From Methylobacterium sp. R2-1 (GTDB taxonomy: Bacteria > Pseudomonadota > Alphaproteobacteria > Rhizobiales > Beijerinckiaceae): a DNA stretch of 64,000 nt. Where the stretch lies: assembly GCF_014191355.1 (NCBI RefSeq), contig NZ_JACHWM010000004.1, positions 248,001-312,000 of the forward strand, written 5' to 3'. The translations under genes and the position numbers were made by a program. Position 1 is the first letter of the stretch, and every line of letters begins with the position of its first letter. Of this stretch, positions 23,700 through 29,460 are shown one piece after another. The notes below the pieces were generated by a model. It had not been told where the DNA came from. It worked only from the letters and a program-made list of their open reading frames with translations, and did no database searches.

Positions 23700-25424
<1,725 letters not shown>

Positions 25425-25480: not shown

Positions 25481-25643
25481 CGTCGCCAGGACCCGGATGC
25501 GGCCGATGATCGCCGGGGCGGCGCGCGGCTCACCGCAGGAAAACCACCGGGAGTATATCCAATGCAGTGGCCGCGGGCACCGGGTCTCGGCAGCTTCGAC
25601 TCGGCAGCTCTCTGACGTTGTCGGCCTGATTTCCCCGAGCACC

Positions 25644-25922
25644 GTGACGGATCGTATCCCCGCTCCCTCGACGCCGCATGTGCGCATCCGCGAGGAGATG
25701 CTGGGCCTGATGCAGGCGCTGTCGGAGGGGATACGGATTGATCGCCTGATGGCCGATCAGCTCTCACAGATCTCCGATCGCGCCAGGCTCTGCGGTGAGG
25801 GAGAGATGGCCGACGGTCTCCTCGACGTGACCCGCAGGCACCGGGTCGCCGAGCTGGAGGGGCAGGGCCGGCTCGCCGCCCTCGAAGCGCGGTATGCGAT
25901 CCTGTTCCCCGACGAGCCGTAG
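25644..25922 (+). CDS. hypothetical protein, about 92 aa
   Basis: A GTG at 25644 (then TDRIPAPSTPHVRIREEM) is the most plausible start; the open frame extends further upstream but that part (from 25497) is cysteine/arginine-rich and looks like read-through. The body is predicted all-helical (EEMLGLMQALSEGIRIDRLMADQ and following), with heptad-like leucines, so it may be a small helical or coiled-coil protein. No family recognised, weak ribosome site. It lies between the groESL terminator and the convergent lysine-tailed gene. Confidence 0.45.
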   Translation: MTDRIPAPSTPHVRIREEMLGLMQALSEGIRIDRLMADQLSQISDRARLCGEGEMADGLLDVTRRHRVAELEGQGRLAALEARYAILFPDEP

Positions 25923-25955: not shown

Positions 25956-26489
25956 TCAGCCCTTCTTCTTCTTGCCCTTCCGCTCCTTCTGATCCTTTTC
26001 CTTGCCCTTCTTCTCCCGGCCTTCCTTCGCGGCCGGCGCGTCGTGGTCCTTGCCGTCCCACACCGCGGCGAAGGCGCGGCTGGCCAGCGCCCGCTCCGGC
26101 GGAGCCGCGATGGCACGGGCCTTGGTCGCTGCATCCTCGGCCCGGGTCTCGCCCTTGCCGAACGGCGCGTCACCGGCGGCCAGGGCGGCGAGGCGGTGGC
26201 GATGCCAGCCCGGCGTCGCGCTCTTCAGCGAGGGGTGGTGCGGGTCGAGACGGGTCACGAGTCCCTTCATCTCCGCCTCGGACATCCCGTCCGCGATCAG
26301 GGCAAAGCTCTCGCTGCCGAGAACCTCGCGGATCATGCGCAGTGACGCCACGCGCAGGGTCCGGGCCTTGAGCTGCTTCACGACGAGAGAGCGGGCGACC
26401 TTGGGGATTTCGGTCCGGATGTCGGGAAACGCTTCCGGCGCGGCGGCCATCGCCTGCAACACGGCGTACCCATCGACATCAAGGGCCAT
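25956..26489 (-). CDS. hypothetical protein with lysine-rich C-terminal tail, partner gene of orphan ParA
   Basis: A 177-residue protein whose ATG overlaps the last 11 bases of the upstream ParA-like gene, a strong sign of coupled expression. Residues 1-80 look folded and helical (MALDVDGYAVLQAMAAAPEA, then IPKVARSLVVKQLKARTLR). Residues about 85-150 are alanine-rich and less ordered, and the last 30 residues are almost all Lys, Glu, Gly and Arg (ending RKGKKKKG), typical of a nucleic-acid- or polyphosphate-binding tail. No family recognised. It could be the adaptor or cargo-linking factor for the ParA-type ATPase; this is inferred from overlap alone. Confidence 0.75.
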   Translation of the reverse strand: MALDVDGYAVLQAMAAAPEAFPDIRTEIPKVARSLVVKQLKARTLRVASLRMIREVLGSESFALIADGMSEAEMKGLVTRLDPHHPSLKSATPGWHRHRLAALAAGDAPFGKGETRAEDAATKARAIAAPPERALASRAFAAVWDGKDHDAPAAKEGREKKGKEKDQKERKGKKKKG

Positions 26490-27378
26490 GGAGGAGTTCC
26501 TTCACTTCCGCGACGAGCGGAATCAGCACATTGGAGACGTGGGCGCCATACTTGGCGGAGAAGGTCGGCGGTGCACCATCGGCGGGAACCAGCGCGTCGG
26601 CCAGCGCCGCCGCCTGCGGGATGCGGGTTTGGAGCAGATGGAAGCCGGCATCCTCGGCCCTCGCCTCCGTCTGGAGTCGGGCCAGGGTCCGCTGATGCTG
26701 GCGGACCTGGGCCTGGAAGCGGGTGACGAGAACGTGCGGTGCACTCCTCGGGACGATGTGGCTCGCCTGCCGGCCGGAGCGCCGCCAGATCGTCTCGACG
26801 AAGGCATTGAGACCGTAGGTGGAAAGAAAATCGGGGATGGAAGTGACGAGCACGAGGTCGGCGGCACGCACTGCCACCTCGGTCATGGGTGAAATGCCCG
26901 GCGCGCAATCGAAGAAGATGTAATCGTAGTTTTCGGCCAGAGGCACGAAATCCTCTTGGAAGATCGACCACAGCTTCTCGTCGATGGCGTGCATCGAGAA
27001 TTTCCGCTCGGTCAACTCGTAGAGGATCTCCCGCTCGACGAGCCGCAGGTGCGGGCCGGACGGCAGCAGCGAGAGCGACAGCGGCGCGTTCTTATGGATG
27101 GTCAGGCTGACACCGGGTTGGATCCGAGCGGAGAGGTCCGGCTTGTGGCGGGTGATGAGCTTGAGGGCGAGATAGGCCTCCAAGGTGCGCCCTCGGACGA
27201 TCATCTCGCCGAGCAGCCTGTCACCCGCGAGGCAAACCGACACGCTCGCCTGCGGATCGAGATCGACCACCAGCACCCGCGCTCCGTCCGCGGCCAGCGC
27301 CTCGGCAAGCATGACCACGGTGGTGGTCTTGCCGACCCCGCCCTTCATGTTCGCCACCGCGATCAGCTTGCCGCCCAC
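26479..27378 (-). CDS. ParA/MinD-type ATPase (orphan)
   Basis: A 299-residue P-loop ATPase. The GTG at 27378 is selected because GAGGGG lies about seven bases upstream and because it places the deviant Walker A motif KGGVGKTT at 12-19, right after ANM. DLDPQAS (39-45) supplies the conserved Asp residues, and YDYIFFDCAPG is the Walker B. Deviant Walker A ATPases dimerise on ATP and position plasmids, chromosomes, chemoreceptor arrays, carboxysomes or secretion systems. No parB gene or parS-like repeat is nearby, so this is not the chromosomal parAB locus. The 3' end overlaps the lysine-tailed gene. Confidence 0.88.
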   Translation of the reverse strand: MGGKLIAVANMKGGVGKTTTVVMLAEALAADGARVLVVDLDPQASVSVCLAGDRLLGEMIVRGRTLEAYLALKLITRHKPDLSARIQPGVSLTIHKNAPLSLSLLPSGPHLRLVEREILYELTERKFSMHAIDEKLWSIFQEDFVPLAENYDYIFFDCAPGISPMTEVAVRAADLVLVTSIPDFLSTYGLNAFVETIWRRSGRQASHIVPRSAPHVLVTRFQAQVRQHQRTLARLQTEARAEDAGFHLLQTRIPQAAALADALVPADGAPPTFSAKYGAHVSNVLIPLVAEVKELLHGP

Positions 27379-27684
27379 CGATATCCCCTCAGAAACGAAC
27401 GCCGCGTCGAACCTGCTCCGCCCGCAAGTCGAGCTGCTTGAAGGCACTCTAGCGCATCGAGCGTTGCCGGTGTCCGACGACACCTTTCGGTAGAATGCTG
27501 ACTGTCATTCTGTCGCTTGCCGATCGACGCTGGATCTCCAGCGCCGATCCGTGACCGTCGCGGAATGAAACGCCTTCGTGATCGCCAGCACGGGCGGACT
27601 ACGGCGCCGATAATCCTATTTTGCGAAGCGCCAACGACAGCCGCCACTCCGGCGGGTCGCGCTCCCGATCCGAGGTTCTTCGCT
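27379..27684. other. divergent intergenic region ParA / MAPEG
   Basis: About 306 bases separating divergent genes. It should contain both promoters. I see no clear consensus boxes, dyad of note, RNA gene or coding frame with a ribosome site. Confidence 0.55.
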
Positions 27685-28102: not shown

Positions 28103-29170
28103 CTACGGCGCGGCGGCGACTCGCGGCGCCGTCTCGTTCGACAGAGTCGCAGTCCCTCTGCGTTCGAGCGTCGCGACGGAGAGGGGTTGACCGCGCCCGC
28201 GCAGGGCATGCGTTCCGAGCGGTCTGACGACGACACCCTCGGGCAGCCGCGGCAGCCGCTTCAACAGATCCTCGGAGATCAGGGTGTCGACACCGAGTGG
28301 TCGGCATAGAGCCTCGACGCGGGCGACCACGTTCACAGCGTCGCCGAAATAGGCGATCTTGTGCCGATCCACCCCAACCTCGGCCGTGATGACCCGGCCG
28401 CCATGTAGGCCCGCCCGCAGCCGCGGAACCGTGCCGAAACGCGCCTCCCACGCTTCGGCCTCCGCCTCGATCCGCTCACGCACGGCGAACAGGCACTCGA
28501 CGCAGCGCGCGTCCTTCAGGCCGCGCTCCATCGGCCATGTGATCATCGCGAGGTCGCCGATGTAATCGTCGGTCGAGCCGTAGAACCGGCGCACCGGCTC
28601 CGCCAGAGTCGCGAAGACGGCGCCGAGATATTCCTGGGCGCGCAGATCACCGTGCGTTTCGGCGAAGGCGGTGGACCCAACGACGTCGAGGAACAGGAAG
28701 ATGCGCTCTTCCTCCACGGGGCGGTGGTAGCGCCCGACGAGGAAGTTGATGAAGACCTCGCCGCCGATCAGGTCGCGCATGCGGATCACGAAGACGAGCA
28801 GCGCCGAGACGGCGAGCGCGTAGGCCAGCACCCGCGGCGTGGTACGTACCGCCTCCTCCAGACTGTCCGCGGTCAGGCCGAGCAGCCAGACGACGAAGCC
28901 GCCGAGCGCGTTGCCGACGACGATCATCGCCACGTAGGAGAGTTCCGCCGCCACGACGTAGAGCCCGGCGGGCAGGCGGCGGATGCGCGACTGGACGCCG
29001 GCCAGGAGCACGCCCCGGTCGAAGGCCAACGCCGAGATGCCGACGCACAGGCCGTAGGTGAAGCCGGCCAGCGGCGTCGCGCCGCCGGCGAAGATGACAT
29101 TGTAGAGCAGCCCCGCCCCACCCGAGGCGAGGAGGATGAGGAGCCAGAACCAGCGATGGTGCGGCAGCAT
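28103..29170 (-). CDS. membrane-bound class III adenylate/guanylate cyclase
   Basis: A 355-residue protein from ATG at 29170: six hydrophobic segments (about 8-130) and a C-terminal class III cyclase domain (about 155-330). Metal ligands are D162 (FLFLDVVGST) and D206 (DDYIGD), and the transition-state pair N280/R284 lies in FGDAVNVVAR with D277. The position that normally holds the purine-selecting Lys (KYIGD) is Asp202 here, as I recall for a group of rhizobial cyclases, so nucleotide specificity should not be assumed. It probably makes cAMP in response to a membrane signal. PBP gene lies upstream on the same strand, 290 bases away. Confidence 0.85.
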   Translation of the reverse strand: MLPHHRWFWLLILLASGGAGLLYNVIFAGGATPLAGFTYGLCVGISALAFDRGVLLAGVQSRIRRLPAGLYVVAAELSYVAMIVVGNALGGFVVWLLGLTADSLEEAVRTTPRVLAYALAVSALLVFVIRMRDLIGGEVFINFLVGRYHRPVEEERIFLFLDVVGSTAFAETHGDLRAQEYLGAVFATLAEPVRRFYGSTDDYIGDLAMITWPMERGLKDARCVECLFAVRERIEAEAEAWEARFGTVPRLRAGLHGGRVITAEVGVDRHKIAYFGDAVNVVARVEALCRPLGVDTLISEDLLKRLPRLPEGVVVRPLGTHALRGRGQPLSVATLERRGTATLSNETAPRVAAAP

Positions 29171-29460
29171 CAGATCGGGCTCCGGCGGCCGTCGATGGAA
29201 GTGCCCGTCCCGCGCGCGGCAGCCCTCAGGCCATGCGGGCGACGGTCGGGCAGGCGGGTCGACACGGGGGCTCCTTCGGTCGCCGATCAGGAGGTGCGGG
29301 AGAAACCCTGATCCTCGCGAGGCTGTCGCAGGCTCATGCCCGCAACGTGGCGCGAATGTGGCGCGCCGCCGCGTGTAGGGCTCGAGCCGCGCCGAAAATT
29401 TTCTCACCCGTGACTCGGCGGGAGGGATTACCCGTTCCCGTCAGGAGGATTGCGCAGAAC

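Follow-up and report, generated by a model that had tools for sequence, protein, structure and literature searches.

An orphan ParA-type ATPase and a putative dedicated partner protein in a Methylobacterium genome, with a predicted nuclease encoded beside related ATPases

Introduction

The partner proteins of ParA/MinD-type ATPases are extremely diverse, and those described contact the ATPase through a positively charged, disordered N-terminus, according to the accessible parts of two accounts (PMC10241942; PMC12204374). The accessible part of the first gives this diversity as the reason why many ParA/MinD ATPases are termed orphans, i.e., their partners are too diverse to be recognized (PMC10241942). 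A further orphan ParA, ParI of Pseudomonas putida, destabilizes IncP-7 plasmids, as stated in the available portion of its description (PMC9178275).

Here we analyze a locus of Methylobacterium sp. R2-1 in which a ParA-type ATPase gene overlaps the gene of a small protein, p2. The stretch of DNA analyzed, hereafter the window, comprises 64,000 nucleotides of a 5.83-Mb genome (G000:C4:248001-312000). One partner family without a credible match in Pfam or NCBIfam is identified and its anatomy described, and in relatives a third component was unexpectedly found, a predicted nuclease, through which the role of the system can be tested directly. Among the open-licence papers listed by literature searches, no title or abstract opening describes this pairing of ParA and partner, or of nuclease and ParA, and the word ParA does not occur in PMC11090510.

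Results

The ATPase gene and its overlapping neighbor

The parA-like gene lies at 26479..27378 on the minus strand and encodes 299 aa from a GTG start, with GAGGGG 6 nt 5' of it (by eye); an alternative longer frame of 334 aa, beginning with the GTG at 27483, is also open. The three features of the ParA/MinD (deviant Walker A) class, i.e., KGGxGK[TS], the A' motif and Walker B, are all present, as KGGVGKTT at residues 12–19, DLDPQAS and DYIFFDCAPG, and Pfam AAA_31 matches the product with E 4.2e-32, in agreement with an earlier note on this DNA, which had assigned the class from the first two motifs. The ParA of Methylorubrum rhodesianum is 93% identical. The gene of p2 (25956..26489, minus strand; 177 aa), the candidate cognate partner, starts with an ATG inside parA, with AAGGA 8 nt 5' of the ATG (by eye), and the coding overlap of 11 bases reported in the earlier note is confirmed at 26479..26489 (minus strand). 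Between the stop of p2 and that of a convergent ORF (25497-25922) there are 33 bases.

A ParA scan of species genomes gave 527 relatives, and the best 80 were kept as loci. From these best 80 of 527, 42 of the 49 loci L015–L063 entered a p2 alignment, which with the window has 43 rows. Outside it stand L058 and L059, where a p2-like gene was recognized by eye, L056, where a p2-like gene is apparently split over two frames, and L055, L060, L061 and L062, with no convincing p2 beside ParA. In the 43 rows, again drawn from the best 80 of 527 ParA relatives, KGGVGKT is kept in 42, the window's included, and the A' motif in all, and with the chosen starts parA and p2 overlap in every pair (11 bases in 29, 4–17 bases in 13, 85 bases in one). 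The ParA of Methylobacterium sp. J-090 (L024:4001-4879) reads KGGVGLTT, i.e., Leu replaces the P-loop Lys; its frame is otherwise open and p2 adjoins it.

Compared with L016, L017, L032 and L019, dN/dS is 0.10–0.22 for parA and 0.13–0.29 for the whole of p2, the p2 tail alone evolving faster (0.21–0.55). Given the AAA_31 match of ParA and the low dN/dS of both, parA and p2 look like real genes that are maintained.

Co-occurrence and chromosomal site

A check of co-occurrence across the order had been suggested in the earlier note. Among 397 genomes of the order, a p2 profile, used without ParA as bait, matched in nine, and a ParA orthologue (E 1e-30) was found in eight of the 397, which are the same eight as those found by the p2 profile; in the ninth p2 genome, G295, a diverged ParA (KGGIGKTT) overlaps p2. 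The single p2 sequence gave six matches in 149 genomes of the family: three already counted, two new ones (G125 and G102) with ParA beside p2, and one in G099 (L014; E 2e-4) that was rejected as spurious, with four internal stops and no ParA P-loop nearby. In all 11 genomes in which a credible p2 was found without ParA bait, the window's included, parA lies directly upstream; the genes overlap in 10 of them, and in G102 the p2 ATG directly follows the parA stop, provided that no upstream GTG serves as the start. On this ground parA and p2 are regarded as a dedicated pair. The earlier note's view of the two as linked is thereby upheld, and the pattern it had named as contrary, p2 homologues regularly found without ParA, did not appear. 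In the 397-genome searches at most nine (p2), five (ParA) and six (gene A, see below) first-look candidates were scored per genome, so absence in them is not absolute. Presence is patchy (of the 11 genomes listed for the genus, 5 have the pair), which is unusual for a housekeeping positioning system.

The chromosomal site is marked by groEL (23784..25424, plus strand), a conserved neighbor that is not part of the module. A further neighbor, cyclase-like by eye, lies at 28103..29407 on the minus strand, and its homologue is found next to groEL in two genomes without the module. Sixteen Methylobacteriaceae module loci were compared: groEL adjoins in 12, and both groEL and the 28103–29407 neighbor in six, two of which (L022 and L150) look like one genome. 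In Methylobacterium sp. Leaf108 (L020) the groEL site holds gene A, parA and p2. In the two genomes of the genus without the module (G443/L158 and G130/L159), the homologues of groEL and of the 28103–29407 gene adjoin, with no ParA or p2 match between them, and the module is therefore optional at the groEL site. At L160–L163 there is no groEL near the 28103–29407 homologue.

Orphan status and plasmid partition

The ATPase had been called an orphan in the earlier note, and this is borne out. The adjacent ParB gene that defines ParABS is missing at this locus, and the sole ParB_N match in the window's genome lies on another contig (C2:178098), about 400 bases after another ParA; the AAA_31 match adjoining it (C2:177153-177695) is the top-scoring one in the genome. 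In the whole genome there are 12 AAA_31 matches in about 11 frames, as two share a frame, against this one ParB_N match, so other ParA/MinD-type proteins in it are also without ParB.

Membership of the ParA superfamily would equally be expected of a plasmid-type partition ATPase stranded on the chromosome, with a remote parB, an objection that the earlier note had itself raised. This origin is very improbable and largely excluded: the one ParB_N match adjoins another ParA, no relative of the window ParA was found among 72,556 plasmids at E 1e-25 or better, and its score with the NCBIfam partition ParA model NF041546 is 90.1 bits, under the curated cut-off of 180. For p2, there is no match in the 72,556 plasmids at E 1e-3. 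Records close to the window's genome may be missing from the plasmid and phage collections.

Anatomy of p2

The p2 model, predicted from the 43-sequence alignment, has six helices within residues 1–108 (26166..26489, minus strand), the first of them starting at residue 7, with pLDDT mostly >90; after residue 108 confidence is low, and the tail is predicted to be disordered. Within the tail, residues 131–150 (PERALASRAFAAVWDGKDHD; 26040..26099, minus strand) are the window form of a motif common to many family members, and residues 151–177 with the stop codon (25956..26039, minus strand) make up a Lys/Glu-rich end that is a lineage-specific extension of the basic C-terminus. The last 30 residues comprise 11 K, 2 R, 4 E, 3 D and 4 G, i.e., they are Lys-dominated with mixed charge, which confirms the Lys-rich tail that the earlier note had singled out. 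As a feature of the family this holds for the basic C-terminus, present in most members; the poly-Lys run as a conserved element was rejected, being long only in close relatives of the window. Long Lys/Glu tails occur in Methylorubrum and near relatives, and other members have short ends, e.g., RKR or RPRQQE.

The last 12 residues carry a net charge of at least 3 in 32 of the 43 p2 members (from the best 80 of 527 ParA relatives) vs 18% of 467 control ORFs, which were called mechanically and in some cases are open at a contig end. Averaged over the 43 members, the charge is −1.7 in the N-terminal 20 residues (range −4 to +2) and +4.1 in the C-terminal 20. A motif sampler run on 25 non-redundant p2 tails returned a shared block with LLR 238.3, vs 174.9 (s.d. 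5.2, maximum 186.5) in 12 shuffles with search effort equal to that for the real data; earlier shuffles with less effort had given 170.9 (s.d. 5.2). By eye, the block takes forms such as RALGSxxFAAxWDGKD, FLSSEAMAAVRKR and LESMKAK. The tail motif is regarded as real in many members and not as universal, since a loose pattern, composed after viewing the sequences, occurs in 26 of the 43 members (best 80 of 527 ParA relatives) vs a mean of 3.8 in 200 shuffles (maximum 9); some of the sampler's picks resemble chance. Judged from the alignment, the common element of the family is thus a basic C-terminus, preceded in many members by a short motif.

No Pfam or NCBIfam family matches p2 up to E 1. 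Searched singly against Pfam, the 43 members hit nine families, one member each, with a best E of 0.0019, and none is credible; the best PDB match of the p2 profile, a transcriptional regulator (E 0.029), is not convincing, and a fold search with the model gave no reliable match (best Foldseek E 2.2; best VIA-align Z 3.4). The N-domain aligns with FliG (1lkv; Z 3.4, 52 residues aligned, rmsd 2.7) and MgtE (2zy9; Z 2.5, 71 aligned, rmsd 5.4), both at Z below the reliable level.

With a pI of 9.9 for p2 and 9.3 for its folded domain, itself basic, and a basic C-terminus in most of the family, p2 could be a nucleoid-associated or an RNA- or polyphosphate-binding protein that acts chiefly via its tail, with ParA regulating this binding and not the positioning of a cargo. 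A weak SAP/HeH resemblance in one member of another small-partner family (see below) points the same way, but these matches (E 0.03 and 0.094) lie below the Pfam cut-offs and concern that different family, and in p2 itself tail length and composition vary strongly between lineages. We consider such a role improbable.

A nuclease-like third gene in relatives

Among the best 80 of 527 ParA relatives, 14 of 44 loci have an additional gene, gene A, of about 270 aa, whose end coincides with the parA start or lies close to it; the window is one of the 44 and does not have the gene. Remnants of gene A upstream of parA were found in none of 30 loci, for which up to 4 kb was searched (about 0.6 kb in L025 and 3.5 kb in L015). 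L055, L056, L058, L060, L061 and L062 were left out of this upstream scan, and a separate neighbor comparison showed no gene A beside them; the gene A profile scan did not take in L064–L094, none of which the gene A cluster contained.

Six members of gene A have no match in Pfam. The model has a winged helix at residues 1–74 (delimited by fold matches), followed by an α/β domain. Its two best VIA rows are both PaqCI (Z 12.2 and 11.7; 154 and 141 residues; rmsd 3.5 and 3.4), and of the other high rows most are confined to the winged helix; 3dnx, a protein of unknown function, covers the second domain (Z 9.4); the best Foldseek match is AF2093 (E 3.7e-4). All 11 diverse members aligned share E91, D137, E160 and K162. 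A pattern of E, D and E-x-K is that expected of PD-(D/E)XK nucleases. Both the core fold and the conserved acidic and Lys residues of this class are found, and the gene A product is predicted to be a winged-helix, PD-(D/E)XK nuclease-like protein.

On the ParA tree of the 44 loci (14 with and 30 without gene A; from the best 80 of 527 relatives) the distribution of gene A takes nine changes, at least eight of them on supported branches, vs a mean of 12.0 with shuffled labels, 16 of 500 shuffles being as low as nine. This scatter fits an old association with repeated loss; repeated gain is conceivable. A first ParA-tree test, in which the gene A loci were set against the clade with the other partner, gave one change and was discarded as no measure of scatter.

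Of the 397 genomes of the order, 12 match the gene A profile. The nuclease-like domain is spanned by seven strong matches, from six genomes, and a frame with a ParA P-loop follows directly in six of the seven. Of these six diverged ParAs, one runs into a contig end, that of G295 has p2 after it, and another small protein follows the remaining four. There is no ParA P-loop near a stronger match with Cys for Pro in the motif (L127), or near the weak profile matches L164–L168; large-ORF matches in G539, G354 and G359 were left out of the inspection. Among 385 genomes of the class there were four weak matches, and the three checked have no adjoining ParA P-loop. Gene A has no match elsewhere in the window's genome, and none of the eight genomes with a ParA orthologue, the window's included, has one, which counts against a tight link of gene A with the p2 type of partner. 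Because gene A has no match in eight of the nine p2 genomes of the unbiased draw of 397, ParA-p2 cannot have the nuclease-like protein as its sole client. The two-gene system proposed in the earlier note is accordingly retained as regards the pair, which is conserved and dedicated, and revised as regards its being purely two-gene, some relatives having the nuclease-like gene upstream. By its gene content the window has the two-gene form of the module, and its parA-p2 unit is probably a reduced form of the three-gene one.

Several other arrangements were seen. At L128:6826-8776, L129:6643-8460, L130:6034-7505 (together with the gene that follows parA) and L132:6505-8319, a ParA and a small partner form compact operons with a nuclease-like gene that has no winged helix. 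At L125:2146-10001 a reverse-transcriptase ORF is followed by a large ORF with a DNA-methylase domain and an ORF with a ResIII match, and the N-terminal winged helix of the methylase ORF resembles that of gene A. At L043:2-2991 a gene A module lies beside a transposase-like ORF (by eye), and this locus also has two ORFs that resemble a three-Cys-motif partner and a DUF5131-type protein (by eye).

The strongest rival explanation takes the full module for a restriction or anti-mobile-element system, in which a ParA-type ATP switch and a small partner would control a nuclease on incoming DNA, the window carrying a decayed or repurposed version without the nuclease. It would account for a nuclease-like gene with invariant E, D and E-x-K by ParA at 14 of 44 loci (best 80 of 527 relatives) and at six of seven diverged ones, for PaqCI, a Type IIS restriction enzyme, as the best PDB match of gene A (Z 12.2, 154 residues, rmsd 3.5), and for a winged helix that matches the N-terminus of the large methylase-domain ORF beside the ResIII ORF. 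Also in keeping with it are the patchy presence, the nuclease-like gene having been gained or lost eight times or more, the two genomes in which the whole module is missing from the groEL site, and the two weak matches that the L030 gene A has on plasmids (Paraburkholderia megapolitana, 25% identity over 76%; Ensifer adhaerens, 29% over 51%). We nevertheless hold it to be unlikely. PADLOC (2023 library, six proteins) gave only weak partial matches, of PDC-M28B and mad8 to the ParAs and of LmuA to one p2, and the surroundings of 11 of the 14 gene A loci, read by eye, are mostly housekeeping, with one locus beside a transposase-like ORF. Furthermore, purifying selection maintains parA and p2 where the nuclease-like gene is missing, and on mobile DNA neither a plasmid match of p2 nor a close plasmid ParA was found, nor a gene A match in phage records. 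The 18 pattern matches of gene A in viral contigs include no relative, and PHROGs has no match for p2, gene A or the other partners (six proteins).

A second family of small partners

A second ParA clade (L064–L092, among the best 80 of 527 relatives), mostly from Hyphomonadaceae, has a different small partner directly downstream, in many cases ending in KRAERDxKLFDY, and recurrent neighbors, e.g., a glutathione-reductase-like gene (by eye). Three of the four small proteins that follow the diverged gene A–ParA pairs align with this partner family at low identity, and the fourth is alike by eye. With hhalign, the p2 domain matches the other family with E 6.6e-4 (55 columns, probability 27%) and 5.1e-4 (98 columns, 31%), vs E of at least 0.071 for 10 reversed or column-shuffled controls and 0.11 for gene A; whole p2 gives E 1.7e-3 and 1.1e-3 (probabilities 16% and 21%). 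These values are suggestive of a distant homology between the two families, which we do not accept as shown. A nuclease-like gene, a ParA and a small partner may thus constitute a general layout with two partner types. At L089:4849-5808, downstream of a Propionibacterium ParA, SAP-like repeats were recognized by eye in a protein of 319 aa, and on account of this locus the partner type may reach Actinomycetota.

Discussion

Our preferred reading, to which we give a probability of roughly 0.58, is that an orphan ParA-type ATPase and a partner dedicated to it, p2, are encoded at this locus and work by a positioning-type mechanism; we infer the positioning role from the family membership of the ATPase. 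ATP-bound ParA dimers would sit on the nucleoid, ParA thus acting as a DNA-bound ATP switch, and the basic C-terminal end of p2, with the short motif where present, would contact ParA and trigger ATP hydrolysis and release. The helical N-domain of p2 would bind or build the cargo. In the three-gene form the client would probably be the nuclease-like protein or DNA held by it. The window's lineage has no gene A, and ParA-p2 would therefore have another target there or a role independent of the nuclease. Several findings speak against this reading: the loose tail pattern occurs in only 26 of the 43 members, the p2 tail evolves faster than the remainder of the protein, the folded domain is basic as well, and the distribution of the pair is patchy.

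For the three-gene modules we put forward, tentatively and as a possibility rather than an expectation, that the ParA-type ATPase and the small partner position, load or gate a winged-helix PD-(D/E)XK nuclease on DNA, and that repeated shedding of the nuclease has left two-gene units. If true, this kind of ParA system would have had a DNA-cutting enzyme as its original cargo, and with the nuclease as the original client, ParA-type switching would extend to the control of such an enzyme.

Comparison with known systems places the locus among, and apart from, several of them. It shares the ATPase superfamily with ParABS chromosome and plasmid partition, but has no adjoining ParB, no close plasmid relative that was found, and in p2 a protein with no ParB-family match in Pfam or NCBIfam. 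ParI of Pseudomonas putida is, like the window ParA, a chromosomal orphan; in contrast to the present module, no partner or nuclease-like gene is mentioned for it in the available part of its description (PMC9178275). The gene A of relatives resembles the PaqCI-type PD-(D/E)XK restriction enzymes at the fold level and in the E, D, E-x-K pattern, but differs from PaqCI in having an N-terminal winged helix and in being tied to a ParA, and no adjoining methylase was noticed in the loci read. Similar in layout are McdA/McdB, which position carboxysomes, and other systems of a ParA/MinD ATPase with a partner, where, as here, the gene of a deviant Walker ATPase is accompanied by that of a small partner with a charged segment and little sequence conservation. 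Compared with the described partners and their positively charged, disordered N-terminus, as given in the accessible parts of the sources (PMC10241942; PMC12204374), p2 appears to be built the other way round: its N-terminus is predicted to be ordered, with a model confident from the first block, and is slightly acidic (mean charge −1.7), whereas the basic, low-confidence part is C-terminal. A further difference from McdA/McdB-type systems is that some relatives of the window module have a nuclease-like gene.
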